A stretch of DNA of 64,000 bases from a virus: the IMG/VR virus record IMGVR_UViG_3300008448_000024, positions 30,275-94,274 of that record. One strand, 5' to 3'. Shown here piece after piece: positions 31,216-51,209 of this stretch. Numbering within the stretch: position 1 is the stretch's first letter; each line of letters begins with the position of its first letter. Both the position numbers and the translations under genes were made by a program. A model generated the notes under the pieces. It had not been told where the DNA came from. It saw only the letters and a list, made by a program, of their open reading frames with translations, and did not search any database.

Positions 31216-32268
31216 ATGAATTTAATTAAAATTTTATTAAGCGAAGGTGGAACTGGTGGTCATATGGCACATCCATTCGATTTACCTCAAGTAAATACTG
31301 GAAATGAGTTACTAAAGTCTTTTATATATGCAGTAAAATCATTACAAAAAAATCCCGCATCGGTTAAAATAGATGGAGTAAATGCATCAGTTAGGTTAGT
31401 TAAATTAGACGGAAAACAACAATTTGTTATGGATAGAGGCTCTAATAAGCCTTTAGACGTAAAAGGTATAACTAAAGCTGACTTAGAAGATAGATTTGCG
31501 CCTGGTCATGGTATGGTTAAGATTGGAGGAGAGGTATTAGACATATTTAATGAGTCTTTACCAAAAATAACCAAAGAGCTACAGGTTTTAGGTCTACTTA
31601 ATGATCCAAATATACTACTAAATATAGAATATGTATCAGGAAAGACTAATGTTCAAGATTATGGTAAAAACTTCTTAGCAATACATGGTCTTTTAAAAAT
31701 AGAGCAAGTTACTCCAACTAGAAGAGCTGCAAAAGAGACATCTTATGATAAAAAAGCTTTAGATTCGATGATAAAAAAGATGGGTCCTATAGCTAAGTCA
31801 AAGGATTTTGAAGTATTAGGATCTATACCAGCTACTTTTAAAAATGAGCCAAACTTTTCAAGTGAATTATCAAAATCTTACACAGTTAATTACACAAAAG
31901 ATAAAAAAGAGACTAAAAGTTTAAAAGATTGGTTAAAAACTACTAAAGTTCCTAAAGGCGTAAAAATAACCTTAGCAGATGGTAAAAAAGTAGATGCTTT
32001 AAGTAAGCAGGTATTTGTTGCTATAAAGAATGGAACGCCTTTAGATAAATTAGTAGCAAATAAAAACGAATACAAGAGTGCAATAGATGGATATGTTACC
32101 TATCTAGCAACAATGCAATTAGGCGATTCAGTATTAAAATCAATGGAAAGTCCACTTGGAGACGTAGATCAACAAGAGGGCATCGTAATAAGAGATAAAA
32201 GTATATATGATAAGCCCTTTAAGATAACGGGTTCATTTATTTTAAGAGGATTAGGTACATCATTTTAG
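31216..32268 (+). CDS. Tagged ATP-dependent polynucleotide ligase-like nucleotidyltransferase
   Basis: 350 residues. The N-terminus MNLIKILLSEGGTGG is a tag ending L-S-E before Gly. Motif I is ASVKIDGVNASVRLV (KxDG, adenylated Lys near residue 55). Later come LLNIEYVSGKT, motif IV QEGIVIRDKS (near 322), and motif V YDKPFKITGSF. These blocks fit the covalent nucleotidyltransferase core of DNA and RNA ligases. No OB or other extra domain is obvious, and whether the substrate is RNA or DNA cannot be told. The conserved opening HMAHPFDLP is shared by relatives in aquatic T4-like phages as far as I recall. Confidence 0.65.
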   Translation: MNLIKILLSEGGTGGHMAHPFDLPQVNTGNELLKSFIYAVKSLQKNPASVKIDGVNASVRLVKLDGKQQFVMDRGSNKPLDVKGITKADLEDRFAPGHGMVKIGGEVLDIFNESLPKITKELQVLGLLNDPNILLNIEYVSGKTNVQDYGKNFLAIHGLLKIEQVTPTRRAAKETSYDKKALDSMIKKMGPIAKSKDFEVLGSIPATFKNEPNFSSELSKSYTVNYTKDKKETKSLKDWLKTTKVPKGVKITLADGKKVDALSKQVFVAIKNGTPLDKLVANKNEYKSAIDGYVTYLATMQLGDSVLKSMESPLGDVDQQEGIVIRDKSIYDKPFKITGSFILRGLGTSF

Positions 32269-32274
32269 TAGTGT

Positions 32275-33180
32275 ATGGAAGATCAACAAAGAATATCGAT
32301 TTATACTGACTTTTTAAAGTATTGTTATAGAGAATTAGGCATAAAACAAGCGCCTAAGATAGATTTCACTACTGATAAGAAATTTGCAACTACTAATCAT
32401 AGTTTTGGTGGATATGTACCTTCTCAACAAAGTATTATTGTATATATAAACAATAGAAATATCGCTGATGTATTAAGAACATTGGCACATGAATTAGTAC
32501 ATCATAGCCAGAATGAAAATGGACTATTAACTCAAGAATCGGGTGAAACTGGGTCTGATATTGAGAATGAGGCTAACTCAAAAGCTGGAATTTTACTTAG
32601 AAATTACGGAAAAGTCAATCCTATCATATATGAAAGAGTAGATATGTCTATTCTTAGAGAGGATTTACAAAAATATGAGTTATATTGTGATATGGATGGA
32701 GTTCTTTGCGATTTTGATGCTCAATTTGATCACTACTTTGGTTTAAATCCAAAAGAATACATACAAGATCGAGGAGAAAAATCATTTGAGAATGCTATAG
32801 AAGAAGGTGGGATAGAATTTTGGTCTACTATGCCATGGTTTCCTAATAGTGAAAAACTTTGGAGCAGAATAGGTAAGTTTGGAGTAAACATACTATCAAG
32901 CCCTAGCAATTTTTCAGCTGCAAAAGAAGGAAAGCTGCTATGGATAAAGAAACACTTAAATCCACAACCTAAAAAAATAATATTTAAACAGACAGGGGAT
33001 AAGCATACCGTATTAGTAGGTAAATCTCAAGTAGAAATAGAGCATTCTGTATTAATAGATGATTATTCAGTTAATTTAAAACCTTGGATGGCGATGGGTG
33101 GTATAGGAATTAAACATGAAAATGAATCAAATACTTCTCACATACTACAAACATTAGATAAAAATGATAAAACTAACTAA
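32275..33180 (+). CDS. Zincin-like domain fused to HAD-type 5'-nucleotidase across an internal LRE site
   Basis: 301 residues. Residues 1-120 hold a HELVH zinc motif (72-76, in LAHELVHHSQNENG) with a possible third ligand in the following ENEAN helix. Residues 124-130 (MSILRED) mimic the tag with L-R-E. Residues 137-300 are a HAD phosphatase: YCDMDGVLCDFD for motif I, LSSPSN for motif II, and VLIDDYSVNLKPW for motif IV, as in 5'(3')-deoxyribonucleotidases. If the internal LRE is cut, two separate enzymes would result. The start codon follows the previous stop by six bases, and the 3' end overlaps the next start. Confidence 0.7.
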   Translation: MEDQQRISIYTDFLKYCYRELGIKQAPKIDFTTDKKFATTNHSFGGYVPSQQSIIVYINNRNIADVLRTLAHELVHHSQNENGLLTQESGETGSDIENEANSKAGILLRNYGKVNPIIYERVDMSILREDLQKYELYCDMDGVLCDFDAQFDHYFGLNPKEYIQDRGEKSFENAIEEGGIEFWSTMPWFPNSEKLWSRIGKFGVNILSSPSNFSAAKEGKLLWIKKHLNPQPKKIIFKQTGDKHTVLVGKSQVEIEHSVLIDDYSVNLKPWMAMGGIGIKHENESNTSHILQTLDKNDKTN

Positions 33181-33403
33181 AATATTAGAAGAAAGCAAAA
33201 AACTTGGATCAATTGAATATCCAGATGATCATAAGCCAGGCTTAAAAGTACCAACTGGCGGCTCAATGTGCGCTAATTGTGAATATTGGATAAAAGATGG
33301 TAATATGTGTAAAAATGAATACTGGTTAAAGTGGAATAAAGGAAAAGCTAAAATACCACATGCAGGTAATCAATACTGCTGCGACTGGTGGCATAAACAA
33401 TAA
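33164..33403 (+). CDS. Tagged small Cys-rich metal-binding protein
   Basis: 79 residues starting MIKLTKILEESKKLG, the tag with I-L-E and L-E-E sites. The body holds five Cys residues: MCANCEYW, MCKNEYW and QYCCDWWHK, an arrangement suggesting a zinc or iron-sulfur site. It overlaps the end of the preceding gene by 17 bases, so it is translated within the same run. Function unknown; small Cys-rich phage proteins may be structural or redox-active. Confidence 0.6.
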   Translation: MIKLTKILEESKKLGSIEYPDDHKPGLKVPTGGSMCANCEYWIKDGNMCKNEYWLKWNKGKAKIPHAGNQYCCDWWHKQ

Positions 33404-33418
33404 AAATAAAATACTGTT

Positions 33419-33991
33419 ATGAAAGAACAATCAAACTTAAAGAGAGAATTTAGTAAAAAAGACGTACAACGAATGCGCAATATCATAACAGGTAAAGCTG
33501 GTGATAGAACACAAGTACTTTCTGGTTATCAAAAACAAGAAATAGAACACAAAGAGGGAGATATTTGGGAAGAAAGCGGTAAAAAGTGGACTATAAAAAA
33601 TGGAATTAAGCAAACCGTAACTGTTATGGATCGATTTAAGAAGTTAGTAGTGCTTCCATTATGTTGTCCAAACTGTAATAAACCAATGAAACTTAATGAT
33701 TTGAATAAAAAAATGTATGCTATTCACTCTACATGCTTTGATTGCGTTTTAGAAAAAGAACAAAAAATAAAGTTAAGCGGTAATTGGGAAGAGTATACAA
33801 AAGGTGTACTATCTAATAATCATAACGTATATTTAGGTGATGTAGAACAAGCGTTAGAGGCATGGTACAATGAAAACGAGTCTTTTATTACTGAAGCTGG
33901 AGATGTAGAGACATGGAAAGGTGGTAATAAAAAAGAAATATATGATCAACTAAAAAAACAGTTAACCAAAATAAAGGAAGAAAACGGTTGA
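33419..33991 (+). CDS. Zinc-ribbon-like protein with C-terminal ITE site
   Basis: 190 residues. The N-terminus is basic and helical (SKKDVQRMRNIITGK), then IWEESGKKWTIKNGIKQTV and a CCPNC...CFDC pair (near 79-116) form a probable zinc ribbon. YNENESFITEAGDVETWKGG near residue 160 contains I-T-E before Ala, which looks like the sites elsewhere at N-termini. No N-terminal tag is present, so a processing site near the C-terminus would be unusual. The first residues are not hydrophobic. Confidence 0.55.
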   Translation: MKEQSNLKREFSKKDVQRMRNIITGKAGDRTQVLSGYQKQEIEHKEGDIWEESGKKWTIKNGIKQTVTVMDRFKKLVVLPLCCPNCNKPMKLNDLNKKMYAIHSTCFDCVLEKEQKIKLSGNWEEYTKGVLSNNHNVYLGDVEQALEAWYNENESFITEAGDVETWKGGNKKEIYDQLKKQLTKIKEENG

Positions 33992-33998
33992 TATTTAT
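33991..33998 (+). promoter_or_regulatory. ATATTTAT late-promoter-like box
   Basis: gATATTTATA overlaps the last base of the preceding stop codon and ends 16 bases before the ATG at 34015. Confidence 0.55.
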
Positions 33999-34014
33999 AG
34001 ATAAAACAATTATT

Positions 34015-34623
34015 ATGCCAGCGACAAGCGAACCGCAAAGAAAACTATTTGGTGCAGCATTATCAGCTAAACGTGGAGAATCAAAACCAGTGAGTAAAAA
34101 AGTATCAAATATAGCTAAGAATACTAGTGAAAAAGAACTAGAAAAAATGGCTTCGAAGCCAAAAAAAGAAGGAATGGACGATGGATCTATTTCTCAATTG
34201 TTTGTAGTTAAGAAACCTGATCAGGGCTGCACCAGAGACAATCTGGTAGCGCCAATTAATCCGCTTAATGGTATATCGGATTTACAGTTAAGTCCTGACC
34301 AAGTGCACGGGGTATATCCTGATGCTGATTCTGCAGGAATGATGGCTGAAAGAATGTGCCAAGAGTACGAAGAAGGTCAAAAAATGTTAGAAGAAAAGAA
34401 AGGTACTACTACAGAGAAGATAAAAAAAGCTATAGATAAGCTTGAGAAGAAGCGTAAAGAGCACATGGATGCGATGAAAGAAAATCCAAAGACTGCTAGT
34501 GAACATAAAACTGCGATTGCTGATTTAGCTACAAGAATCGATGATTATATAACAAAGTTAGAAAAGATCGAGAAGAGCAAAAAGGCTGAAGAAAAGAAAG
34601 AAGATAAAAAAGACAAAAAATGA
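34015..34623 (+). CDS. DUF3008-like protein
   Basis: 202 residues from MPATSEPQRKLFGAALSAKRGE. That start (P-A-T-S-E-x-Q-R-x-L-F-G-x-A-L-x-x-K-R-G-E) is typical of DUF3008-type phage proteins. A middle region follows (LNGISDLQLSPDQVHGVYPD), then a long charged helix to a Lys-rich end (KAEEKKEDKKDKK). The ATG at 34015 is used because the motif and the ATATTTAT box set it; an earlier in-frame ATG would place ten unrelated residues first. Its basic tail and helix suggest nucleic-acid association or packing, but that is inference. Confidence 0.65.
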   Translation: MPATSEPQRKLFGAALSAKRGESKPVSKKVSNIAKNTSEKELEKMASKPKKEGMDDGSISQLFVVKKPDQGCTRDNLVAPINPLNGISDLQLSPDQVHGVYPDADSAGMMAERMCQEYEEGQKMLEEKKGTTTEKIKKAIDKLEKKRKEHMDAMKENPKTASEHKTAIADLATRIDDYITKLEKIEKSKKAEEKKEDKKDKK

Positions 34624-34991
34624 TAAAGTTAACAGAGCTAATGAACGAATACGGTGATTTTAATGATCCAGTGCTCATGGCCACTAGAGCTTCTAAATTC
34701 AGTAGAGATAAAAAGCTTTCTGCTCAAAAGGCTGCCGCAAAAAAACGGATTTATGGTAAGAAAAGACAAGCATTGGAAGATAAATTAATCGACATAAATG
34801 ATGATATTAAGTCAGCAATACAACAAAGACATGCATTATTTATCGATATGGAAGAAGAAGCTGGTGAGAAAGGAGAAGATTGGTCAGACGAGGACGCGAA
34901 CAGATACGGACAACAGCTGAATGACATAGATGACACTATACAAAATCTAAAGTCGCTACGAAATAAAATAGAAACTAGACTAAACTATTAA
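34620..34991 (+). CDS. Tagged coiled-coil protein
   Basis: 123 residues beginning MIKLTELMNEYGDFNDPVLMA. The tag includes L-T-E and M-N-E. The rest (residues 20-120) is almost entirely charged coiled coil (KKRIYGKKRQALEDKLIDIN, DIDDTIQNLKSLRNKIET). The start overlaps the upstream stop by four bases. The DPVLMA...R block is one I associate with small phage proteins of unknown function. Confidence 0.6.
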   Translation: MIKLTELMNEYGDFNDPVLMATRASKFSRDKKLSAQKAAAKKRIYGKKRQALEDKLIDINDDIKSAIQQRHALFIDMEEEAGEKGEDWSDEDANRYGQQLNDIDDTIQNLKSLRNKIETRLNY

Positions 34992-35000
34992 AATAAATAA

Positions 35001-35369
35001 ATGAAACTAATAGACCTATTATCTGAATCTTTCGCAACAAATTCAAAATTAGCAAGTGCTGTTAAGTTTATGAAAAAAAATGCAGAATCTGCATATGAGG
35101 ATGAAAAAGAAATCCAAGCAGCTATGAAAGATGTAAAAGCATCAGGATTAACTTCGGACGATATATTTAAGTTTGCAAGTTTATTTCCAAGAGATAGTTT
35201 TAAAGTAGATGATATTCGTAGTGGCAAATTGGAGGCACAAATAAAACGAGTATATTTTAGTGGTGACGACCAATCAAAAGCATTGGAAAAAGCAAAAGCA
35301 CTAAAATCGTTTTTATTAGCATTTGATAAAAACCACGGTGGAGATAAAAATTGGTACAAAAGATATTAA
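35001..35369 (+). CDS. Tagged small helical protein
   Basis: 122 residues beginning MKLIDLLSESFATNSKLASA. The tag ends L-S-E before Ser. The body is helical and Lys/Asp-rich with the C-terminus FDKNHGGDKNWYKRY. No domain is recognised. Ten bases separate it from the upstream gene, and the next gene starts 12 bases downstream. Confidence 0.55.
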   Translation: MKLIDLLSESFATNSKLASAVKFMKKNAESAYEDEKEIQAAMKDVKASGLTSDDIFKFASLFPRDSFKVDDIRSGKLEAQIKRVYFSGDDQSKALEKAKALKSFLLAFDKNHGGDKNWYKRY

Positions 35370-35381
35370 AAAATAATTACA

Positions 35382-35753
35382 ATGGAAAACATAGGACTTT
35401 TATTAGGTACATTGATGCAAAGCAGAAATCAAGCCCATGTGTATCATTTGCAAGCAACAGGACCAGGTTCTCATGCAGCTCATTTAGCACTTCAAGCTTA
35501 TTATGAAGATATAGTGCCTTTAGTGGATGCTTTAGCAGAAGGTTGGCAAGGTCGTTATGGAATAATTACTGGATATAATATGGCGGGTACAATAAAAGAA
35601 GATGGCAACGCAGTTGCTTATTTTGAAACTCTTTGTAAGTTTGTTGAAGTAATAAGAAAACAAATACCCCAAGATTCATATATTCAAAATCAAGTGGATG
35701 AAGTAGTATCATTAATAGAAACTACAAAATATAAACTTATAAATTTACAATAA
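35382..35753 (+). CDS. DUF5856-like ferritin-fold protein
   Basis: 123 residues. LLGTLMQSRNQAHVYHLQAT then GSHAAHLALQAYYEDIVPLV, then DALAEGWQGRYGI, are recognisable as the DUF5856 family of T4-like phages, which appear related to Dps-like four-helix bundles (Q-A-H...H-L and Y-E-x-I placed like metal ligands). No tag is present. It is inside the tagged-gene run, so the bundle may be part of the head or a soluble protein; the role is unknown. Confidence 0.6.
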   Translation: MENIGLLLGTLMQSRNQAHVYHLQATGPGSHAAHLALQAYYEDIVPLVDALAEGWQGRYGIITGYNMAGTIKEDGNAVAYFETLCKFVEVIRKQIPQDSYIQNQVDEVVSLIETTKYKLINLQ

Positions 35754-36347
35754 GTGATAAGCATTATTAATACACTAAACGAAGATCTAAATGGAGAAAA
35801 TCCATGTTGGAGAGGGTATGAACCTATAGGAACTAAAGAGAAAGATGGAAAGACTGTTCCGAACTGTGTACCAATAGATGAACAAAATCAGCCTAATTTA
35901 CAACAAATAAAGAAAGGCATAGAAGTTGAGATGGAACATACCAGTGATAGGAAGACTGCACTAAAAATTGCCTTAGATCATTTAGCAGAAGATCCAAATT
36001 ATTACGATAAATTGCAAGCAGCTGGGTTAGAAGAGGAATTAAACGAAGGTGAATTCTGTTCTGAGTGCTTAAAAGAGTACATACAGCAAATGTCAAATCT
36101 AATGCTTGAAGCTGAATATAAAGGTAGAAAAGTGCCATTAGGTAAGCCTATGAAAGGTGACGTTAAAAAGTTTAAAGTATATGTAAAAAATAAAAAAGGT
36201 AAAGTTGTAAAAGTTAATTTTGGACAAAAAGGCGTAAAAATAAAAAAAAGTAACCCAAAAAGAAGAAAATCATTTAGAGCAAGGCATAAATGTCATACAG
36301 CTAAAGATAGAACAACACCTAGATATTGGAGTTGTCGTAAATGGTAA
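35754..36347 (+). CDS. Tagged DUF5872-like basic protein with internal site
   Basis: 197 residues from a GTG start that overlaps no gene. The first residues MISIINTLNEDLNGENPCWRG (with L-N-E) are tag-like. PCWRGYEPIGTKEKDGKTVP is followed by an acidic helical middle and QMSNLMLEAEYKG near 120, a second tag-like stretch. The C-terminus is very basic and Cys-containing (NPKRRKSFRARHKCHTAKDR, then PRYWSCRKW), as in small DNA-binding phage proteins. Splitting after the second site would free the basic domain for DNA binding; this is inference. Confidence 0.6.
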   Translation: MISIINTLNEDLNGENPCWRGYEPIGTKEKDGKTVPNCVPIDEQNQPNLQQIKKGIEVEMEHTSDRKTALKIALDHLAEDPNYYDKLQAAGLEEELNEGEFCSECLKEYIQQMSNLMLEAEYKGRKVPLGKPMKGDVKKFKVYVKNKKGKVVKVNFGQKGVKIKKSNPKRRKSFRARHKCHTAKDRTTPRYWSCRKW

Positions 36348-36358
36348 AAATATATAAC

Positions 36359-36970
36359 ATGAATAATAAACTTTTCGTAAAACACTTAATATTAGAGACA
36401 TTATCAGAAGCAGAAGTCGATAGCGAAGTAGACAAAGGTATGTCAGATGCGTATACTGCTCTAAAATCAAATTTATCTATTTTAGAAGGATATAAAGCTA
36501 AACAACCTAAAAAAGAAGGGCAAATAAATGAAGCTTTAGGCGCAATGGTTGCTAGTGGTTTATTAGCCGCACCTAAAATAATTGAATGGATAGCGAAATC
36601 TATAAATTATTTAGTTAAAACTTTTTCTAAAAAAGATGAAAGTCAAATCGCTAAATCTATTGAAAAGTTTGCACATAAGTGGGAAAAATTATATATAACA
36701 ATAATAAAAAAAGCAGTAAAATATACTGGATTTTTAGAAAATCTTTGGAAAAAAGAAAAACAAGTTGATGAAGAAAAGCTAGAACTTGTCGCAAAAGTAA
36801 TATTTGCATTAATACTAGCACTCGCAGCAGGTACTGCATTAAAAACAATATTATCACCAGCATCACCAGTGATTAAGGCAATAGAGGCTACATTAGGTGG
36901 AATTAAAGCTACTGAGATTATTGGAATTGCTAAAACAGTAGCTAATAAAATTGGTATTAAAGTAGTATAA
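36359..36970 (+). CDS. Tagged protein with hydrophobic helices
   Basis: 203 residues beginning MNNKLFVKHLILETLSEAEVD (tag with L-S-E before Ala). INEALGAMVASGLLAAPKII near 55 and a strongly hydrophobic span (VIFALILALAAGTALKTIL, near 148) suggest membrane interaction. The ATG at 36359 is chosen so that the tag is N-terminal; a start at 36341 would add six residues and overlap the previous stop. A packaged membrane-active protein could act on the host envelope at entry, but nothing confirms it. Confidence 0.55.
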   Translation: MNNKLFVKHLILETLSEAEVDSEVDKGMSDAYTALKSNLSILEGYKAKQPKKEGQINEALGAMVASGLLAAPKIIEWIAKSINYLVKTFSKKDESQIAKSIEKFAHKWEKLYITIIKKAVKYTGFLENLWKKEKQVDEEKLELVAKVIFALILALAAGTALKTILSPASPVIKAIEATLGGIKATEIIGIAKTVANKIGIKVV

Positions 36971-36982
36971 AATAATAAAAAT

Positions 36983-37240
36983 ATGAAACAAGAAATTAAT
37001 GAAACTAAAAGACTGCAAGAGTTAGCTGGCGTTGATAAACAATCTCAATTAAATGAAGTAATATCTCCAATACATAAAAATCGGCTTCGGCTTCCTACAT
37101 ATAAAAAAATTGATACGTATTTAAAATCTATTATTGGAAAACCATTTGATAAAAAAATGGCTGATGATATATCAATTATGGCTTTTGATTTAGCTAGAGA
37201 TTATTTTGAGAAGTATTCAAAAGATGGATTTCAAAAATAA
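36983..37240 (+). CDS. MKQ-tag protein 1 of three in tandem
   Basis: 85 residues. MKQEINETKRLQELAGVDKQ is followed by SQLNEV, a candidate L-N-E site at residues 23-25. The remainder is a short helical domain (KIDTYLKSIIGKPFDKKMAD, then MAFDLARDYFEKY). The leader and ATG form the 17-mer aaaataataaaaatatg (36969-36985), exactly repeated before the next two genes. The gene is one of four with this tag. Confidence 0.65.
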   Translation: MKQEINETKRLQELAGVDKQSQLNEVISPIHKNRLRLPTYKKIDTYLKSIIGKPFDKKMADDISIMAFDLARDYFEKYSKDGFQK

Positions 37241-37262
37241 AAATATACAAAATAATAAAAAT

Positions 37263-37568
37263 ATGAAGAAATATATTAATGAAGCAAAAAGAATGCAGCA
37301 ACTAGCAGGTATCTTAAAAGAAGGAGCTGATTTATCAAGATATGATAGTATGTCTGATGCTGATCTTATTAAATGGGCGAAACAAGATGGAATGGAAGAA
37401 TTTATTGTTATTGATGGAGAAGGAGGATTAGCAAATAGAGAAGAATTATTAAATGGTTTACTAGGAATAGAAGATACATATACATCAGATGAAGACGATG
37501 CTATTGATAGTATGTGGGATGATGAATTAGATCCAGCAGGCGGTAGAGGACCATTATCACATATATAA
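37263..37568 (+). CDS. MKK-tag protein 2 of three in tandem
   Basis: 101 residues beginning MKKYINEAKRMQQLAGILKE then GADLSRYDSMSD. The tag ends L-K-E before Gly. The body is strongly acidic and short (ADLIKWAKQDGMEEFIVIDG, EDTYTSDEDDAIDSMWDDEL), with an FIVIDGEGG strand-turn. The leader-plus-ATG 17-mer is at 37249-37265. The acidic body resembles a DNA mimic or scaffold-like peptide only in composition. An upstream ATG in this frame lies inside the preceding gene and is rejected. Confidence 0.65.
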   Translation: MKKYINEAKRMQQLAGILKEGADLSRYDSMSDADLIKWAKQDGMEEFIVIDGEGGLANREELLNGLLGIEDTYTSDEDDAIDSMWDDELDPAGGRGPLSHI

Positions 37569-37580
37569 AATAATAAAAAT

Positions 37581-37874
37581 ATGAAACAACAACTTAACGA
37601 AACAAAAAGAATGCAGCAATTAGCTGGTATTATTAAGGAAGATAGGAATATGGAAATGATGGGGGAGATGCATAGTGAAGAGGATTTTATGGCTCCAGTA
37701 ATAAATTATATAACCAAAAAATATTCAAGCTTAATTGCTAATAAAGATTACGATGCTTTAGGAGCTGCTATTGAAAAAGATTTTCCGTCGCTTCGTTCTG
37801 ATTTAGTTCTTCAAACTATATTTGGAAATGATACTCCTGAAGAGTTATCAACTCCTCCTAGCGGCTTTTTTTAG
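37581..37874 (+). CDS. MKQ-tag protein 3 of three in tandem
   Basis: 97 residues beginning MKQQLNETKRMQQLAGIIKE then DRNMEMMGEMHSEED. The tag ends I-K-E before Asp. The body is helical (FMAPVINYITKKYSSLIANK), ending PEELSTPPSGFF. The leader-plus-ATG 17-mer is at 37567-37583. The stop is followed by a 100-base spacer with no terminator seen. Confidence 0.65.
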   Translation: MKQQLNETKRMQQLAGIIKEDRNMEMMGEMHSEEDFMAPVINYITKKYSSLIANKDYDALGAAIEKDFPSLRSDLVLQTIFGNDTPEELSTPPSGFF

Positions 37875-37976
37875 TATTTCCTTTATCTGTATAAAATTTA
37901 AACGATAAACTAAGTTGCGATATTATTCACCAAAATCCATTTATGGAAGAAGACAGTAAAATCCAAAAAAGAATAA

Positions 37977-38186
37977 ATGACTTGGAGATCGAAATTCTTA
38001 AGCAATGTAGCTACAACGTGTCTGATGCTAGCGATGTTTTTCAACCCGCTTGGCTTCGACATATTATTCAAACTAGTAATGGACTTGACAGATTCTTACT
38101 TAATTACGGATTTACTTTTCTATTTCGCTGCGCTTTTATTTCTTGGATTATATTTCTTATTCAAAAAAGCATCTAATAGATCTTAG
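37977..38186 (+). CDS. Small two-span membrane protein
   Basis: 69 residues: MTWRSKFLSNVATTCLMLAM, FFNPLGFDILFKLVMD, LTDSYLITDLLFYFAALLFL, GLYFLFKKASNRS. Two hydrophobic spans with NPLGFD and a polar hinge between them match small inner-membrane phage proteins I have seen in aquatic T4-like genomes. Another frame begins at 37943 and overlaps it; the 37977 frame is favoured for its clean two-span layout and basic end. It may be a lysis or host-membrane protein. Confidence 0.6.
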   Translation: MTWRSKFLSNVATTCLMLAMFFNPLGFDILFKLVMDLTDSYLITDLLFYFAALLFLGLYFLFKKASNRS

Positions 38187-38187
38187 C

Positions 38188-38195
38188 ATATTTAT
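38188..38195 (+). promoter_or_regulatory. ATATTTAT late-promoter-like box
   Basis: cATATTTATA begins two bases after the previous stop and ends ten bases before the ATG at 38206. Confidence 0.55.
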
Positions 38196-38205
38196 ATAGA
38201 GTAGG

Positions 38206-38499
38206 ATGATTAAATTAATGACCATATTACAAGAGGAACCTTACGTAGATGTTAGTAAAACTAATATAGGTAAAACTACTACAGATTCAGGAATAACTAC
38301 AAAATTAACTGATATTGATCCAAGTACTGGAAAAATGGGTTGGGATGTAAGTTATGATGTAGATCCAAAAGAGGTGTATGAAAAGCTATCTGATCTTTAT
38401 AAATTTTTAGCTAACATAAATCCTGATAGTCCACTAATTGTAATAAGAGATCAAGTTAAAAAACTAAGAAATAAAACATCTAGATTAATAGTAAAATGA
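38206..38499 (+). CDS. Tagged small protein of unknown function
   Basis: 97 residues beginning MIKLMTILQEEPYVDVSKTN. The tag ends L-Q-E before Glu. The body is a mixed alpha/beta domain (GKMGWDVSYDVDPKEVYEKL, DLYKFLANINPD). It overlaps the next gene by four bases (ATGA). No family is recognised. Confidence 0.6.
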   Translation: MIKLMTILQEEPYVDVSKTNIGKTTTDSGITTKLTDIDPSTGKMGWDVSYDVDPKEVYEKLSDLYKFLANINPDSPLIVIRDQVKKLRNKTSRLIVK

Positions 38500-38957
38500 A
38501 AAATGTATCATTACAATCATTAGTAAGCTTACTAAGAGAAGAACAAGAGGCAGAATTATCAGAGAATCATAAAGTTGGAGATTTTGTTGTTCCTAATGTA
38601 GGTGCACATAAAGGGCTTAAACATAAAATCATCGCAATTAAAGATGATGGTAGCTACAATATACAACCAATTCTTAATAAAGGACAAAAAAATAAGTATA
38701 GATTAGGAGCAGCTAATGCAAAGCTTGATCAACTATCACCATATAAAGAGGAAATTAAAGAAGGCGCTGATCATGAAGTAGCGATGGCTATGAGCAGTCT
38801 AAAAGAAATAGTTAGTAATGCTTCCCAACTTATGGATAAATTAGGTGGAATGGAAAGAAACATTCCCGGCTGGATTCAAGATCACATAACTAACGCTGAA
38901 AATTTTATAGAGCAAGCAAATCAAGGATTTCATGAGTTAGACCACTCAGGTGAATAA
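38496..38957 (+). CDS. Tagged protein with conserved ADHEVAMA...NIPGWIQDHI domain
   Basis: 153 residues beginning MKNVSLQSLVSLLREEQEAE (tag with L-R-E, and L-S-E slightly later). A beta-rich KVGDFVVPNVGAHKG region follows, with IIAIKDDGSYNIQPI. The C-terminal helical domain has GADHEVAMAMSSLKEIVSNA, NIPGWIQDHITNAENFIEQA. That domain recurs in proteins of aquatic T4-like phages, where its role is unknown. The first domain may be a small KOW or SH3-like barrel. Confidence 0.6.
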   Translation: MKNVSLQSLVSLLREEQEAELSENHKVGDFVVPNVGAHKGLKHKIIAIKDDGSYNIQPILNKGQKNKYRLGAANAKLDQLSPYKEEIKEGADHEVAMAMSSLKEIVSNASQLMDKLGGMERNIPGWIQDHITNAENFIEQANQGFHELDHSGE

Positions 38958-38984
38958 AGTTATATAAAGTAAAAACACATAAGT

Positions 38985-41087
38985 ATGAATATGGACTCTT
39001 TAATACTAAAAAATATATTATTAAGAGAGATAGACGAAGAAGATGCTAAAAAAGAAGAAGATCAAAGTCAATCTCCATTTGAAAAAGATCCTATGGGATT
39101 TATATTAAAGAAGTATGTAACTTTGAATGAGTTATTAAGTGAATTAATGACTCCATCATTTAAAGAGTACTTAGATGCCATATTTATCGTTGCTCCAAAA
39201 CCAACAACATTTAAAATATTATTACATAACGGACAATACTTCTTTCTTACGTATTTAGAAAAGGCGTATCAAGCTACAATATCAGGTAAAAATTATTACC
39301 TAATGACTACAGGAGAGAAGCAATTATGTATGCAAGCTATTGCAAGATTGTTAAGATTTGGATCTCCATTAAAAACAAAAGGCCCTGAAGGATCTGAACA
39401 AGGTCCAGAAGCTGAAGATGCTGGAGAATCAACAACAGAACCAGCAGAAACTACACCAGAAGCGGGAGGTGAAGAAGAGACACTGGCAGAATCAGTAATA
39501 TTAAAGCATATATTAAAAAAGCTAGTATTAACAGAAGCCGCAACAGACATGAAAAGACCAAATACTGGTAATGAAATTTCTTTAAAAGAGGGATTAGTTT
39601 GTTTATTTTATGATGTTTTTAAAGACTCTTCTTTAGTTAAAGATATAGAAGAATTACACGCTATAGTTACAACAAAACAAGCGGCTGAGCAAATTGTAGA
39701 AGACGATATAAAAAAAATAGTTGATAAAATAGCTCAAGTATATAATAAAAATAAACAATACTATGGCGTAGGCAAATCTATGCCAGAGAATCTAGATTTA
39801 TATATTAAATATGTTTTCTTATCTAGACAAGAGGTAGACACTTTAACAAACGCTATATCAGCAGCCGCATCTATACATAAAGATATTTCTACAGAAGGTA
39901 GAATAATTAGGAATGAAGACTTTGATAAGATTAGACAAAAAGCTGTTTCATTAATAAAAGAACAGTATAATGTATCATTACAAGCTGATAACTGGTGTCC
40001 AGGCGACGTTTATTTAGTATTAAATCAATCAAGTATATCAAATTGTTTAAAAGCAGATACTGTTAATATAGGAAAATCAAGTTTAAATCATCAATTTGAA
40101 AAAGATGGAGATTTAATAGCTATATCTTTAAAAGAAGAAAAAGCACAAGCTGGAAAAGCTACAACTTTTGCTAATACTGTATTTAGTAATAGTTTTGATG
40201 CTGATGTAAATCCAGATGATAAATATGGTACATCAGATAATAAAGACTTAGCTAAAATATCAGCAAAAATAGCAAGATTTGAAGATTATTATTATGGTCC
40301 AAAAAGAGGTGGAAGACGATCTCAAAGTTATATAAATGCTATAACAAAAGATAAAAAATTGCATGGATCGGTTAATTCAATACTTCAAGCAGCAGGAAAA
40401 TCAAAAATAAAAACTACTAATATAAAAAGTGAATTTCAATCAGAAGATGCTTTTTATAAAGCAAATAAACAATTATTTGATGATATAGAATCTTCTATAA
40501 AATCTTTAAAAAATAAAATGACTGGGGGTGATTCTACAACGAAGGTAAAAAAGTCATTTATTACTAGTAGAGATAAATTTATAGATGATATAAAAAAATA
40601 TGAAATAGAAGTAAGCGCAGAAGATAATAATAAGTTTTCTAAAGAGATAGAAAAAGAAAATGAAGATTACATAAAAGTATTATCTATGAAGACTGCTACG
40701 TATGAATTAGCAAGTTTAATCATTGATAAATGGACAGATAAAAATGCTAAAATATCCCCAGCGTATAAAAAAATACAAGAGATTACAAATCCATTCGTTG
40801 CTTTAACTGCATTTGCTATAGCTGAAGCTGGTTTAAGTCCGAGTTTTTATAAAGTTATTGGTAGTTCTAAAACACTAATAGGACATACTGATTATTTCGA
40901 TGCAAAATCAGAAGTTGATATAGATTCTAGTAGTACAAAAATGACTTTAATAGATTCTCCAAAACAAGCTGGTTTTATGCTATCATATATTACTAAATTA
41001 GGTAAAAAAAATTATTCTACGAAATTGGTATTTAGGTTTTCTGGTTCTGAAATAAGAATAGAGGTACAAGAATTAAAAGCACAATAA
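38985..41087 (+). CDS. Large tagged protein with second internal tag (probable packaged protein)
   Basis: 700 residues. The N-terminus DSLILKNILLREIDEED offers L-R-E. After a helical part and an acidic low-complexity linker (EDAGESTTEPAETTPEAGGE, near 145), the sequence SVILKHILKKLVLTEAATD (about 168-186) repeats the tag with L-T-E. The C-terminal 500 residues are a separate, mostly helical domain containing the stretch YYYGPKRGGRRSQ and FWD-free charged helices; no enzyme motif is recognised. Cleavage at both sites would remove the tag and linker. It is the longest member of the tagged cluster. Confidence 0.6.
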   Translation: MNMDSLILKNILLREIDEEDAKKEEDQSQSPFEKDPMGFILKKYVTLNELLSELMTPSFKEYLDAIFIVAPKPTTFKILLHNGQYFFLTYLEKAYQATISGKNYYLMTTGEKQLCMQAIARLLRFGSPLKTKGPEGSEQGPEAEDAGESTTEPAETTPEAGGEEETLAESVILKHILKKLVLTEAATDMKRPNTGNEISLKEGLVCLFYDVFKDSSLVKDIEELHAIVTTKQAAEQIVEDDIKKIVDKIAQVYNKNKQYYGVGKSMPENLDLYIKYVFLSRQEVDTLTNAISAAASIHKDISTEGRIIRNEDFDKIRQKAVSLIKEQYNVSLQADNWCPGDVYLVLNQSSISNCLKADTVNIGKSSLNHQFEKDGDLIAISLKEEKAQAGKATTFANTVFSNSFDADVNPDDKYGTSDNKDLAKISAKIARFEDYYYGPKRGGRRSQSYINAITKDKKLHGSVNSILQAAGKSKIKTTNIKSEFQSEDAFYKANKQLFDDIESSIKSLKNKMTGGDSTTKVKKSFITSRDKFIDDIKKYEIEVSAEDNNKFSKEIEKENEDYIKVLSMKTATYELASLIIDKWTDKNAKISPAYKKIQEITNPFVALTAFAIAEAGLSPSFYKVIGSSKTLIGHTDYFDAKSEVDIDSSSTKMTLIDSPKQAGFMLSYITKLGKKNYSTKLVFRFSGSEIRIEVQELKAQ

Positions 41088-44053: not shown

Positions 44054-45976
44054 ATGGAACAAGAAAAAAAACCACAAGCTAATTTATTTAGCTCACTAAG
44101 ACGACTATTTTCTACTGACGTTATCATAAGAAATGAAGGCGGAGGTATGGTAAAAGTCATTGACACTGATAAAATACAAACATCAGGTGTAATACAGACT
44201 AATAGTATAATCGATAGATTTCATAAAGTATACACTACGTCTACTGCGTATGGTGTTAATATGAATCTTGCTCAAAACTATCAATCAGCGAGAGTTCAAA
44301 TATACGCAGACTATGATGCTATGGACACAGATGCAATTGTAGCATCTGCTTTAGATATTATATGTGATGAGTGTACATTAAAAAATGAACAAGGGGAAGT
44401 ATTACAAATTAGATCTTCTGATGAGAACATACAAAAGATTTTATACAACCTATATTATTCTATTTTAAATATAGAATTTTCTCTATGGTCATGGATACGT
44501 TACATGTGCAAATATGGAGATTTCTATCTTAAATTAGAAATAGCTGAAGGTTTTGGAGTATACAATGTAATACCATTCTCAGCGTATAATATAGTTAGAC
44601 AAGAGGGTTTTAATCCTGAAAACCCAAGTGAAGTTAGATTTAAGTACGATCCAAATGCAGCGATTGCATCAACTACTGGATATGGTTCTGCTTTTAATAA
44701 TCAAGATACTGGAATTTATTTTGATAATTTCGAAATTGCTCACTTTAGATTAGCAGGAGACGTAAATTATCTGCCTTATGGTAGATCTTACTTAGAACCT
44801 GCTAGAAAACTGTTTAAGCAATATACGCTTATCGAAGATGCGATGCTAATTCATAGAATAGCAAGAGCTCCAGAAAGACGTGTATTCTATGTTAATGTTG
44901 GAGCAATACCTCCTGCAGAAGTAGAAAATTACATTCAAAGGATGATGAATAAGATGAAAAAAACTCCTTTGATTGATCCAAATACTGGAAATTACAATCT
45001 AAAGTATAACGTACAAAATATGTTAGAGGATTTCGTAATACCAGTTAGAGGAAATGACCAAACTACAAAAATAGAAACCGCAAAAGGTTTAGACTATAAT
45101 GGTATCGAAGACGTTACTTATTTTAGAGAAAAGCTATTTGCTGCCCTTAAAGTGCCTAAAGCATTTATGGGATATGAAAAAGATTTAACTGGTAAAGCAA
45201 CATTAGCGGCTGAAGATATTAGATTTGCTAGAACTATTGAACGTATACAAAAAATCATTATATCTGAATTAACAAAGATAGGATTAGTACATTTATACGC
45301 GCATGGTTACACAAACGAATCAGCTGCTAATTTTACAATTTCGCTTACGAATCCATCTATCATATATGATCAAGAACGCGTTGCTTTATTTAAAGAAAAG
45401 ATTGAATTAGCTAAAGCTGCGATGGAAGGTCAATTATTACCTAAAGATTATATATATGATAAAGTATTCCACTTCTCTGAAGATCAATATAGTGAATTAG
45501 AAGATATGATCGTAGAAGACCAAAAGAGAGCATTTAGATTTAAACAAATTGCAGAAGAAGGAAATGATCCTTCTGAAACAGGTCAAGCATTTGGAACGCC
45601 TCACCAATTAGCTAGTTTATATGGAGGAAAAGGAGATATGTCATTAAACGTTCCTACTGGATATGATGAAACTAAGCCAAAAGATCAATATGAATCTCCA
45701 GGTCGACCTTCAACAAAAGCGTCTAAAATAAAAACTGATGATAGTCCATTTGGAAGAGATCCATTAGGTGCTTATGATATGAAAGCTAAACCAAATGCGG
45801 GTGAAGATGCTTTAAAGCCCACTTATAGAGGAGGACCATTAGCTATGGAAGGAACTATGAGTGAGTATATGAAAAATAAAAAGATGCTAGAGTCATTAAA
45901 TTTTAATAGAAAAATAAAATTGTATGAATCTCCAAGTGTTTTAGATGAAAAAAACATATTAGACGATTCTAAGTAA
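44054..45976 (+). CDS. Portal vertex protein (gp20)
   Basis: 640 residues. Conserved blocks: RVQIYADYDAMDTDAIVASA, ALDIICDECTLKN, LWSWIRYMCKYGDFYLKLEI, LPYGRSYLEPARKLFKQYTL, IARAPERRVFYVNVG, and NMLEDFVIPVRGNDQTTKIE, LKVPKAFMGYEKDLTGKATL. These are the gp20 portal hallmarks. Twelve copies form the DNA gate through which terminase packs the genome. It is longer than T4 gp20 (524), with a Pro/Gly/Lys-rich C-terminal extension after residue 500. Confidence 0.92.
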   Translation: MEQEKKPQANLFSSLRRLFSTDVIIRNEGGGMVKVIDTDKIQTSGVIQTNSIIDRFHKVYTTSTAYGVNMNLAQNYQSARVQIYADYDAMDTDAIVASALDIICDECTLKNEQGEVLQIRSSDENIQKILYNLYYSILNIEFSLWSWIRYMCKYGDFYLKLEIAEGFGVYNVIPFSAYNIVRQEGFNPENPSEVRFKYDPNAAIASTTGYGSAFNNQDTGIYFDNFEIAHFRLAGDVNYLPYGRSYLEPARKLFKQYTLIEDAMLIHRIARAPERRVFYVNVGAIPPAEVENYIQRMMNKMKKTPLIDPNTGNYNLKYNVQNMLEDFVIPVRGNDQTTKIETAKGLDYNGIEDVTYFREKLFAALKVPKAFMGYEKDLTGKATLAAEDIRFARTIERIQKIIISELTKIGLVHLYAHGYTNESAANFTISLTNPSIIYDQERVALFKEKIELAKAAMEGQLLPKDYIYDKVFHFSEDQYSELEDMIVEDQKRAFRFKQIAEEGNDPSETGQAFGTPHQLASLYGGKGDMSLNVPTGYDETKPKDQYESPGRPSTKASKIKTDDSPFGRDPLGAYDMKAKPNAGEDALKPTYRGGPLAMEGTMSEYMKNKKMLESLNFNRKIKLYESPSVLDEKNILDDSK

Positions 45977-45984
45977 TTAATTAT

Positions 45985-45992
45985 ATATTTAT
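45985..45992 (+). promoter_or_regulatory. ATATTTAT late-promoter-like box
   Basis: tATATTTATA lies nine bases after the portal stop and 21 bases before the ATG at 46014. Confidence 0.55.
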
Positions 45993-46013
45993 AGGTAGAA
46001 TATAACAACAAAT

Positions 46014-46859
46014 ATGCGCATAAAGCACAGTAAATATCGAAATCCCGCGATCTTGTTTGAATTATTAGTTAGACAAACCACCGCAGATTTGATACAAAAC
46101 AAAGATTCAGTATCAGTTAAAATACTAAAAAAGTATTTTACTAACACAGAATTGGGAAAAGAGTATGCATTGTATTCGACATTCAATACTACTCAAAAAC
46201 TTTCTGAAGCAAAAGCAGAGATGTATATTAATACAATACTAGAGCAAAGAAAGAAATTAGATAATAATAAGCTAAATAGAGAAAAGTATAATCTTATAAA
46301 AGAGATTAAAAGAAGCTATGATATAGATAATTTCTTTAAAGCTAAAATAGATAATTATAAAATCTACGCTGCGATATATACTATATTTGAGTCTAATCAA
46401 AATAAAGAAGTAGATACTAAACAAATTCTATTAAATAAAATTAATATCCTAGAGCATATAACGGAAGGTGGAATTGAGAACAAAACTGCCAGCGCAACGA
46501 TAGTTGAAGAGTTTATGAAAGAGGATAAAGAGATTAGGCTTATAGCATATAAACTAATGGTAGAAAAATATAATACAAAGTATGCTAACTTTTCTACTAA
46601 ACAAAAAGAAATTCTAAAAGAATACATTAATAATGTATCTGAAACAGAATCTTTAAAAGCTTACTTAAATAAAATAATCAAAGAAATAAAGTCTGAACTT
46701 TTGACCATATACGAGTCAATTGATGATCAAGTTACAAAAATTAGGCTTAATGAAACTATTAAACTACTTAAGCCAATTAAGCAAAACGAATCTATAAAAG
46801 ACGAAGTAATTTCAAATATATTACAGTATGTTGAATTGGTTGATATTTTAAAAAAATAA
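46014..46859 (+). CDS. Conserved protein between portal and protease (prohead core candidate)
   Basis: 281 residues. The start RIKHSKYRNPAILFELLVRQ followed by TTADLIQNKD is a pattern I associate with a conserved protein next to gp20 in aquatic T4-like phages. The rest is helical and Lys/Glu-rich. In T4 this interval codes small prohead-core proteins (gp67, gp68), so a core or scaffold role is plausible; no motif proves it. Confidence 0.55.
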   Translation: MRIKHSKYRNPAILFELLVRQTTADLIQNKDSVSVKILKKYFTNTELGKEYALYSTFNTTQKLSEAKAEMYINTILEQRKKLDNNKLNREKYNLIKEIKRSYDIDNFFKAKIDNYKIYAAIYTIFESNQNKEVDTKQILLNKINILEHITEGGIENKTASATIVEEFMKEDKEIRLIAYKLMVEKYNTKYANFSTKQKEILKEYINNVSETESLKAYLNKIIKEIKSELLTIYESIDDQVTKIRLNETIKLLKPIKQNESIKDEVISNILQYVELVDILKK

Positions 46860-46863
46860 TAAT

Positions 46864-47718
46864 ATGAATAAGACATTCAATAACCAATTTGCAACTATAA
46901 AACTAAGAGAAGAAATAGAAGAAGATAGTGTTACTGGATCTGGAGAAGCCTATAAGCCATCATTAAACGTTCCAGAAAAAAAGTATAAGGGCGTTTCAGA
47001 AAGAATCGATACGATTACCTTACAAGATTTTAAAAATGAATTTGAAAAGTTTAAAAGAGGTCTTCGTAGAAAAGATGATATTATCGCAGCATATGCTAAA
47101 CTAAGTTCATCTGATCAAGATTCTGCTAAAGGATATATGAGAGACATCAAAGAAAACAATATTATTGTAGAAGATGATTTATCAGGATATAAGCCAGTAA
47201 AAGGATTCAGAGCTGGTCATACTAAAGATACAGGCGGATTCCAATATAGTGATTTATGGAATGTTAATGAAGCAGATGAACGATATAACGTTGGAGATGA
47301 AGTTAGAGTAACAAAAAAAGGTTCCATTCAATATAATAAGATAGGAACAATAGATGCGATAGATGAAAAGTCTAATATGTACAAAATACAATTTAAAAAC
47401 GGGAAATCTGGAATGTATCACGAATCTGATTTAGTAAGACCCTCAGAGCCAAAAGGCCCACAAAAAATACTAAAAATAGACGAAAACTATAATCGCTTTA
47501 AAAAAGAAACTAGCGTTAGAAGTAAGGAGCAACAAATGCATGAAGCTATGAAGCTAGTTAGAAAAAAATTAGGAGAAGCAGAGAAGGTTATTGATTATGT
47601 AAAAACAATGAAAGAGGAGTTAGGATTGCAAGAGTATAAGAGTCATACAAATAGGTTGATGGAAAAATTACAAGTATCGATTAGTGAAATATACAAAAAA
47701 TACAAAAGCATAAAATAA
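46864..47718 (+). CDS. KOW-like protein of the head module with a LRE site
   Basis: 284 residues. The N-terminus has FATIKLREEIEED (L-R-E near residue 15). Then helical segments (FKNEFEKFKRGLRRKDDIIA) and a KOW/SH3-like domain RYNVGDEVRVTKKGSIQYNK, with IGTIDAIDEKSNMYKIQF near 156. The C-terminal 100 residues are coiled coil (EAMKLVRKKLGEAEKVIDYV). It sits in the interval where T4 has core proteins and may be cleaved in the prohead. Confidence 0.55.
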   Translation: MNKTFNNQFATIKLREEIEEDSVTGSGEAYKPSLNVPEKKYKGVSERIDTITLQDFKNEFEKFKRGLRRKDDIIAAYAKLSSSDQDSAKGYMRDIKENNIIVEDDLSGYKPVKGFRAGHTKDTGGFQYSDLWNVNEADERYNVGDEVRVTKKGSIQYNKIGTIDAIDEKSNMYKIQFKNGKSGMYHESDLVRPSEPKGPQKILKIDENYNRFKKETSVRSKEQQMHEAMKLVRKKLGEAEKVIDYVKTMKEELGLQEYKSHTNRLMEKLQVSISEIYKKYKSIK

Positions 47719-47719
47719 G

Positions 47720-47848
47720 ATGGCAAAGGCAAAAGGTAGCAATGACGCTAAAAAAATAAGTTTCGGTAAAAGAAAAAAAGGTAGCGCTCAAAAATCTTAT
47801 AACAAACATAATCCTCGTCCAAAAGCGTATCGTGGACAAGGTAGATAA
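47720..47848 (+). CDS. Small very basic protein (42 aa)
   Basis: 42 residues: MAKAKGSNDAKKISFGKRKK, then GSAQKSYNKHNPRPKAYRGQ and GR. Fourteen or so Lys/Arg residues give a strong positive charge, and the ending AYRGQGR is reminiscent of a small conserved phage peptide. The ATG follows the preceding stop by one base and the stop abuts the next ATATTTAT box, which supports a real gene. Perhaps a DNA-binding core peptide packaged in the head. Confidence 0.65.
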   Translation: MAKAKGSNDAKKISFGKRKKGSAQKSYNKHNPRPKAYRGQGR

Positions 47849-47855
47849 TATTTAT
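47848..47855 (+). promoter_or_regulatory. ATATTTAT late-promoter-like box
   Basis: It overlaps the last base of the preceding stop and ends only four bases before the ATG at 47860, so a transcript would be near leaderless. Confidence 0.45.
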
Positions 47856-47859
47856 TAGT

Positions 47860-49350
47860 ATGATAAACATAACTAAACTCTATCAACAACTACAAGAAGG
47901 TAAAACTACCCGCGAATATTTTATTAGAGAAGCTCGTAGACAATTTCCGCAATTTATTAGTCCTGTAACTTCTTTTAATGATGCTATAAATATATTGAAA
48001 GGCAAACGACTAGTATCTGAGAATGAAACTAAAGAATTAACTAAAGAGGTTAGCGGCGCTATGTTTGATGCGCGTCTATATGAAGATAAAGAACCTTTAC
48101 AAGAGGCGCATAAGCTTGATACAGAACAAATATTAGATCGTATGTCTCCATACGCAGTTAAAAAAGGCATAGAGATAGAACTAAAAAAAGAAAAGACTTT
48201 TGATAATACTACTATTGATAAGGTTAAAACTCGTGTTGCTAAAAAATTAAAAAAGAATCCAAAAGCTTACGAAGATCTAGTAACATCAAATGCAAAAGAA
48301 GTTGATAAGACTGATAAAGATCTTGAAACTAAAGAACTTAAGCAAGAGTTAGTAGATAAGAAGAATGCTATGGTTAAACCCAAAGGATTCAAAGCAGAAA
48401 AAGCTAATACAAAAGCATCAAAGAAAGAGAATAAAAAAGGCAATCCAAAAGGTGTAAAGGTAATGCAAGATAAAGGCGTTACTGGAACTGAAAAGGTTAT
48501 AAAAGAAGATGTTAGATCATTTGATTATAAACACTTACCAACTAAACAATATAGTGCTAATCAAGTTAAAATGCAGGATATAGTTGATTTTGTTAAAAAA
48601 TATCCTGGTATTACTACAAAAGAATTAGCTTTAAAAGCTTATGGAACAGGCTATAATTATGGTAATAATAAAGATAAAGTATTACAAGGTGCTGTTTATA
48701 TGATAAATAGAGCTGTAAATGCAGGAAAAATCGTTAAAGTAAAGGATATTAAAGTAGGTTCAGCGCGCTTTACATATTTTACTCCAGAAGATTATCAAGA
48801 ATTTCTTCAAAAGAAAAAATCTATGAAAATAGGTAATATTTCTATAAAAGAAAACGTATTAAGCATATTAAAATCTTCTTTATTAGAGAATATGATGCAT
48901 ACTTACGTAAAAGGTGCAGAAGTACATACTCCTGATGGAATAGGTATAGTAGATGATGTCATAGGCGGAACTTTAACTGTAAAATTAGGAGATGGATCTT
49001 TAAAAGATTTTCAAATAAATGTAATCGATAAAGCTACTAGAGATACAAAATTCGATAGTATGAAAGGTTTTGGAGACACTTTACAAACAAAAAAAGAAGA
49101 AGTTAGCGAACCTAAAAAAGCTGAATTAACATCTGAAGAAAAACTTAAAAGCATTTTTGAGAGAATATCTAAAATAAAAGATAAAGAAAAAGCAAAAAAA
49201 ATGCTAGAAGCAATAGAACAAATTACAGGTAAAGATAATTTAGGCAATGATATAACTTTAGCTGTTACTCAACCCGGAAAAGGTCAATCAATGGTTAATA
49301 AACTAAAGTCTCAAGGCGCAAAATCAGTTAAGGTAAATAAAATACAATAA
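47860..49350 (+). CDS. Tagged, multi-part protein in the head module
   Basis: 496 residues. MINITKLYQQLQEGKTTREY is a tag ending L-Q-E before Gly. A Lys-rich low-complexity middle (about 165-215) is followed by a winged-helix-like stretch (GITTKELALKAYGTGYNYGN, near 250), then a second tag-like site IKENVLSILKSSLLENM near 330 with L-L-E. Then a KOW-like TPDGIGIVDDVIGGTLTVKL domain and a C-terminal motif LKSQGAKSVKVNKIQ. It ends on the first base of the protease gene. A head-core substrate of the protease is the likeliest role. Confidence 0.55.
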   Translation: MINITKLYQQLQEGKTTREYFIREARRQFPQFISPVTSFNDAINILKGKRLVSENETKELTKEVSGAMFDARLYEDKEPLQEAHKLDTEQILDRMSPYAVKKGIEIELKKEKTFDNTTIDKVKTRVAKKLKKNPKAYEDLVTSNAKEVDKTDKDLETKELKQELVDKKNAMVKPKGFKAEKANTKASKKENKKGNPKGVKVMQDKGVTGTEKVIKEDVRSFDYKHLPTKQYSANQVKMQDIVDFVKKYPGITTKELALKAYGTGYNYGNNKDKVLQGAVYMINRAVNAGKIVKVKDIKVGSARFTYFTPEDYQEFLQKKKSMKIGNISIKENVLSILKSSLLENMMHTYVKGAEVHTPDGIGIVDDVIGGTLTVKLGDGSLKDFQINVIDKATRDTKFDSMKGFGDTLQTKKEEVSEPKKAELTSEEKLKSIFERISKIKDKEKAKKMLEAIEQITGKDNLGNDITLAVTQPGKGQSMVNKLKSQGAKSVKVNKIQ

Positions 49351-49982: not shown

Positions 49983-50000
49983 AAATAAAAAATAAAGTAT

Positions 50001-50025
50001 AGCCTCCTTTTCAGGAGGTTTTTTT
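50001..50025 (+). terminator. Rho-independent terminator
   Basis: cctcc (50003-50007) pairs with ggagg (50014-50018), loop ttttca, followed by seven T residues. It ends the portal-protease transcript. Confidence 0.85.
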
Positions 50026-50055
50026 ATGTTTTTTTGAATTTTACCAAAAACTTAC

Positions 50056-50063
50056 ATATTTAT
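50056..50063 (+). promoter_or_regulatory. ATATTTAT late-promoter-like box
   Basis: cATATTTAT lies 94 bases before the scaffold ATG, after a terminator. The leader holds a nine-codon reading frame from ATG at 50070 to TAA at 50097-50099, which may be chance or a leader peptide. Confidence 0.5.
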
Positions 50064-50157
50064 TGGTAAATGCGCGAATCCCACTATTGCGCTAAATAAA
50101 AAATCCTCATATTGCTTTTCATAATCTACTAATAAGCAATTAAAAATCAAACAAAAA

Positions 50158-51174: not shown

Positions 51175-51209
51175 AAAAAATAAAAAAACAAAAACAAAAA
51201 CAATTAACA

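Follow-up and report, generated by a model that had tools for sequence, protein, structure and literature searches.

In phage T4, the propeptides of the internal proteins, 10 to 19 residues long, act as capsid-targeting sequences (CTS) and are removed on maturation, and the protease gp21 cuts after (L/I)xE (PMC9026906). The leader and tag DNA are common to ipII and ipIII, two T4 genes for internal proteins that carry a CTS, and therefore offer a precedent for a cassette. In phage P1, an N-terminal signal of fewer than 30 residues in DarB is enough to direct a reporter into the head (PMC9024508). Redundant sites within one propeptide are described for phiKZ and SPN3US (PMC9026906).

We analysed a stretch of 64,000 nucleotides, referred to here as the window, which belongs to a viral record of 94,274 bases. 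The window carries a large terminase gene together with Portal_T4, Peptidase_S77 and Gp23 genes, and is part of a T4-like phage. Four of its genes begin with a common peptide, the tag, which on the evidence presented below is very probably a capsid-targeting propeptide of the T4 type, one that would dock like the tail of the scaffold protein, be cut by a gp21-family protease and be copied as a cassette.

A common N-terminal peptide on unrelated bodies

The four genes share MKxxINEAKRxQxLAGIxxE, and the tag core occurs in the window at 7141, 36998, 37278 and 37596 and nowhere else; 100 dinucleotide shuffles of the window yielded no match. The features are as follows.

7126 to 7185, plus strand: tag MKQIINEAKRLQKLAGILTE, with a different leader
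7186 to 7515, plus strand: body of gene 7126, matched in a sibling record only
36341 to 36970, plus strand: gene adjoining the trio, with a short tag (..LFVKHLILETLSE-AE)
36969 to 36985, plus strand: A/T-rich leader 17-mer and start codon, copy 1, exact match
36983 to 37057, plus strand: tag MKQEINETKRLQELAGVDKQSQLNE, with predicted gp21-type sites INE and QLNE
37058 to 37240, plus strand: body of gene 36983; homolog in G040/G041 with 53% identity and a different tag
37249 to 37265, plus strand: leader 17-mer, copy 2, exact match
37263 to 37322, plus strand: tag MKKYINEAKRMQQLAGILKE
37323 to 37568, plus strand: body of gene 37263, a DGEGGLANREE domain also found within larger phage proteins
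37567 to 37583, plus strand: leader 17-mer, copy 3, exact match
37581 to 37640, plus strand: tag MKQQLNETKRMQQLAGIIKE
37641 to 37874, plus strand: body of gene 37581; relatives searched, none found

An earlier note on this DNA had described the same tag on unrelated bodies, and the bodies of the four genes indeed have no mutual similarity even at E<10. It had also pointed to an identical 17-mer before three of the genes and to a different leader before the same peptide in gene 7126; both observations hold, and the 17-mer, aaaataataaaaatatg, has exactly three copies in the window (36969, 37249 and 37567). The next best match in the genome has 2 mismatches, and five genes have 3. A-rich leaders being frequent in this genome, the identity of the three is noteworthy but extends over a short length. 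The start of gene 37263 lies inside a longer open reading frame with alternative starts (ATG at 37224 or TTG at 37206), and 37263 is favoured because the tag itself begins there.

Selection on the peptide, which had been suspected from third-position differences, was confirmed by comparing synonymous and non-synonymous changes among the four tags. Synonymous sites mostly differ (pS 0.51-0.82, near saturation), non-synonymous sites seldom do (pN 0.06-0.14), and the resulting pN/pS of 0.10-0.22, taken over a tag of only 20-25 residues, indicates purifying selection. Judged by this divergence, the tag copies within the window are old.

Viral contigs were scanned with two exact DNA patterns for the tag. 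The first gave 42 stretches and the second, a variant, at least 120; together they yielded at least 170 distinct tagged proteins among the matches listed, and 164 bodies fell into about 108 clusters, again among the matches listed. A MAFFT alignment (n=72) has the consensus MxxxINEAKRMQxLAGIIxE, followed by almost no conservation, the pattern of a short N-terminal peptide on proteins with differing mature parts. Relatives comprise Flavobacterium phage immuto, Microcystis phage Mel-JY01 and a viral record of 179.6 kb in which the same tag genes occur. Immuto (MW353175; laboratory host Flavobacterium sp. LMO8) encodes two tagged proteins, immuto26A_188 at 111675 of its record and immuto26A_41 at 25061, with (I/L/F)xE sites behind the tag core. 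The protease and scaffold of Mel-JY01 (L152, PP395634) group with those of the window and the Flavobacterium phage and not with those of cyanophages; the phage is listed as a Microcystis phage, and this host label may deserve a check. Across 84,980 prokaryote genomes there were two exact DNA matches to the tag, neither at a plausible N-terminus, which is about the level of chance. The tag is a viral feature.

Against Pfam and PHROGs the tagged bodies had almost no matches. For the body family of gene 36341 the AlphaFold model had a mean pLDDT of 43 and was not used; that of the 37263 protein was confident in part, at about residues 30-70, and its best match in the PDB by Foldseek was no better than E=5.7. 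The tag peptide strings were not found in a literature search.

The C-terminus of the scaffold candidate

The head genes of the window are arranged as follows.

44054 to 45976, plus strand: portal, Gp20 family (PF07230, E=4e-71)
49350 to 49982, plus strand: gp21-family prohead protease, Peptidase_S77 (PF03420, E=6e-23; phrog_207, E=6e-47)
50158 to 51174, plus strand: acidic scaffold candidate in the gp22 position (order protease-scaffold-capsid; no PHROG or Pfam family match)
51136 to 51171, plus strand: C-terminus of the scaffold candidate, FVNRWQVLAGIK, with the core as in the tag
51210 to 52847, plus strand: major capsid protein, Gp23 family (PF07068, E=3e-76)

The acidic protein encoded at 50158-51174 lies between the protease and capsid genes, which is the position of the T4 scaffold gp22. 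It had no profile match to the gp22 scaffold family T4_CASP (PF25623), and hhalign against gp22 gave E values of 0.0005-0.03 with low probability. We use the name scaffold on the basis of position and composition, because the profile similarity to gp22 is weak.

The tag core, RxQxLAGI, corresponds to the last ~10 residues of this scaffold, which ends in IIESDSFVNRWQVLAGIK in the window and in IVESNDVITRMQKLANIIK in an example record. Taken by itself, the window offers a short core match to the scaffold, one that 1-6 of 500 shuffles attain. We searched for the core as R[MFWLIYV][QK]xLA[GN][ILVM] in six frames of 1.56 Mb and obtained 93 hits, 73 N-terminal and 20 C-terminal, with scaffolds accounting for 18 of the 20; inspection revealed none internal to a protein, and reversed and permuted core motifs had no matches in the same 1.56 Mb. 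In 0.66 Mb of further loci the motif was N-terminal in 96 cases, C-terminal in 12 and elsewhere in three, one of these being tag-like without an ATG and two lying inside a longer frame. When scaffold homologs were picked by an internal coiled-coil block alone, with the motif unused, 40 of 41 had the motif at the C-terminal end. In the remaining case the frame is fused with the capsid gene, and RWQVLAG is still present; this single frame of 946 residues (L132, record G006) joins scaffold and capsid at RWQVLAG and reflects either a deletion or an assembly error.

In immuto the likeness of tag and scaffold extends upstream, with SEQ..RxQKLAGII in both. Mel-JY01 has the scaffold motif, and a scan of 99% of its genome found no N-terminal tag; in the head regions of T4 and two cyanophages the motif was absent. 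We also observed a second protein, of 330-340 residues, that ends with the core motif after INE (L130, ending at 1801; L233). C-terminal tagging may exist too, because this protein is not a scaffold.

Our preferred interpretation of these matches is that the tag is apparently a copy of the terminal docking peptide of the scaffold and, because the peptide matches the scaffold tail end, most likely serves as a removable head-loading label for cargo. Alternatively, the tag might be a head-loading propeptide whose likeness to the scaffold is secondary, either because convergent helices bind one site or because the tag binds the scaffold itself. We consider this possible, though clearly the less probable reading. 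It gains from the short L..LLxE tags and the LIPIP tag (MAKLINLIPIPNLKEAKD), which occur on homologous bodies but bear no likeness to the end of the scaffold, and from the T4 CTS, which is unlike gp22. It is opposed by the RxQxLAGI match itself, which extends to nearly every scaffold over 8-9 positions and occurs almost nowhere else, and by the upstream likeness in immuto. We had predicted beforehand that the scaffold of the LIPIP-tagged G040 would have a LIPIP-like end; it ends in RFKKLAGIIK instead. Because this prediction failed, scaffold mimicry holds for the RxQxLAGI tag and is no general rule for tags.

Cleavage motifs, protease linkage and the copying of tags

Behind the tag core, 72 of 74 proteins have an (I/L)xE motif, where shuffles average 26.9 (sd 3.8), and 63 of the 74 have one before the core. 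The gp21 motif (L/I)xE lies at the boundary of tag and body, and body homology restarts right after the site. Most scaffolds have an (I/L/V)xE-like site ahead of the core. The predicted site would thus lie between core and body in both orientations, because it stands before the core in the scaffold and after it in the tag. The N-terminal domain of the clade's capsid proteins closes with a comparable site, L(V/I)xE.

A gp21-family prohead protease is encoded in the window (PF03420), and the family is present in 28 of 39 tag-bearing records, many of which are fragments. Among tag records shorter than 25 kb, 14 of 21 have the protease versus 1.6 expected if the two were unlinked, a count inflated by the fact that IMG/VR favours contigs bearing head genes. 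The tag is on the strand of the protease in all 52 tags measured, 17 tags from 12 records are found 3' of the protease gene at a distance of 0-2.5 kb, on the side where the scaffold comes next, and tagged genes often sit between protease and scaffold. Some tags are 42 to 100 kb from head genes, and the 7126 tag of the window is also distant. Such genes outside the head cluster could be taken to mean that the tag addresses proteins to the tail, the host membrane or a host protein, the gp21-like sites being incidental. We regard this as improbable, given the tight linkage to protease and scaffold, the near-constant cleavage motif (72/74) and the scaffold-tail match.

Other genes of the head block also attracted our attention. 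Shorter tags (MIKLTELMNE, MKLIDLLSE, MIKLMTILQE) open many head-cluster genes (31216-41087, 6558, 44054-52847), and (L/I)xE occurs in residues 5-22 of 16 of 24 head-block genes versus 17 of 88 other genes. These shorter tags are probably a second class of head propeptide, to judge from their motifs. At 35754-36347, also in the head block, a DUF5661 continues into a basic tail with a weak match to DUF5754.

Tags are exchanged between homologous bodies. Gene 36341 begins with a short LLxE-type tag, and a G034 homolog whose body matches it at 45% identity over 181 aa begins with the long one. The body of gene 36983 is long-tagged in the window, and its G040 homolog bears MAKLINLIPIPNLKEAKD instead, which is repeated on the next gene of G040; similarity between the two proteins restarts right after the LNE site, with the LNE-V boundary kept. 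This third tag type opens tandem genes between protease and scaffold (G040, L183:1309-2580), with tag DNA that is nearly identical. The body of gene 37263 is a free tagged protein in the window; in G042/G043 it lies inside a protein whose gene immediately precedes that of the protease. A 40-residue domain, MSDxELIxxAxxDGMEDxIVxDGEGGLANREEVI (window 37323-37568; L162-L179), occurs across many phage proteins of varied size.

Copying was seen most directly in G014, where two adjacent genes with unrelated bodies share 48 nt of leader and 56 nt of coding sequence at 100% identity (104 nt); a similar pair in G035 is less exact. Codon choice in the tags differs from that at other gene starts, both for Asn (AAC:AAT 44:12 versus 247:505) and for Gln (CAG:CAA 37:37 versus 105:469), and by this measure the tags are of common DNA descent. 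The portable leader-plus-tag cassette proposed in the earlier note, therefore, stood in part. Copying is real, as seen in the G014 identity and the tag codons, but the window copies are old, with near-saturated synonymous sites and no more than 14-17 nt of common leader, and the leader is no fixed part of the unit because leaders of different records are mostly unrelated.

Two further explanations have been rejected. One is that the common stretch works at the RNA or DNA level, as a translation enhancer or recombination site, and not as a peptide. Leaders common to some tandem genes and the bias to AAC and CAG would fit such a role, which is nevertheless very unlikely: the peptide is kept while synonymous differences approach saturation, and a role in initiation is impossible for the scaffold copy because there the same peptide is at the C-terminus. 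Least credible of all is a simple tandem duplication with diverged bodies, suggested by three tandem genes with identical 14-17 nt leaders and contradicted by bodies without detectable similarity and by body relatives that occur in unrelated contexts with other N-termini.

The tag and known head-targeting systems

We propose that a tagged protein would be made alongside the late head proteins, and that its tag core, probably a short helix, would dock in the assembling prohead as the near-identical C-terminal peptide of the scaffold does. The docked protein would be built into the core, the gp21-family protease would cut behind an (I/L)xE located between tag core and body, and the mature body would be freed inside the head, from which ejection with the DNA may follow. 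New cargo would be recruited when leader-plus-tag DNA is copied before a new body. Docking and its partner, packaging, cleavage and ejection are what we infer from the tag, its matches and its neighbours.

If this is true, the tag points to the docking site of such targeting sequences, and the scaffold-tail match is a concrete answer, testable by mutation, to the question of what a capsid-targeting sequence binds. Head cargo and candidate injected proteins could then be listed from sequence alone; the tagged proteins of widespread, mostly aquatic phages are predicted to ride in the head, and the resulting candidates for injection have almost entirely unassigned functions. We lean, with some reserve, towards the broader view that throughout a large T4-like clade one copyable peptide matching the scaffold tail forms the loading code for ~100 cargo families, with tags swapped among them.

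The tag has every feature of the capsid-targeting class that a sequence can reveal. The CTS of T4 IPI, IPII and IPIII is likewise a short N-terminal peptide on otherwise different proteins, and it likewise ends at an (I/L)xE gp21 site (PMC9026906). By inspection the tag has no common core with the T4 CTS MKTYQEFIAE, and it is no relative of that peptide by sequence. The tag is also longer, with about 20-25 residues as compared with the 10-19 of T4 propeptides. It matches the scaffold C-terminus, whereas the T4 CTS does not; the T4 CTS as a mimic of gp22 was rejected, its score being reached by 208 of 300 shuffles.

The targeting sequence of P1 DarB is likewise an N-terminal head signal, but there is no consensus among the Dar proteins, unlike the tag described here, and P1 seems to lack a separate scaffold protein, unlike the present phages (PMC9024508). 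In phiKZ and SPN3US, gp21-like proteases likewise cut head cargo after short xxE motifs, although the phiKZ motif is S/A-x-E and not the (I/L)xE found here; a terminal peptide common with the scaffold, which the present tag has, is not described for the giant phages in the passages of PMC9026906 considered here. Judged by titles and abstracts, none of the papers searched that use the term capsid-targeting sequence deals with the present phage group. In T4 the CTS is on a few proteins, while the tag is on about 108 body types across the clade among the matches listed. What is new, read from the genomes compared here, is the number of bodies (about a hundred) that carry the tag, its likeness to the tail of the scaffold and the direct evidence of copying and swapping.
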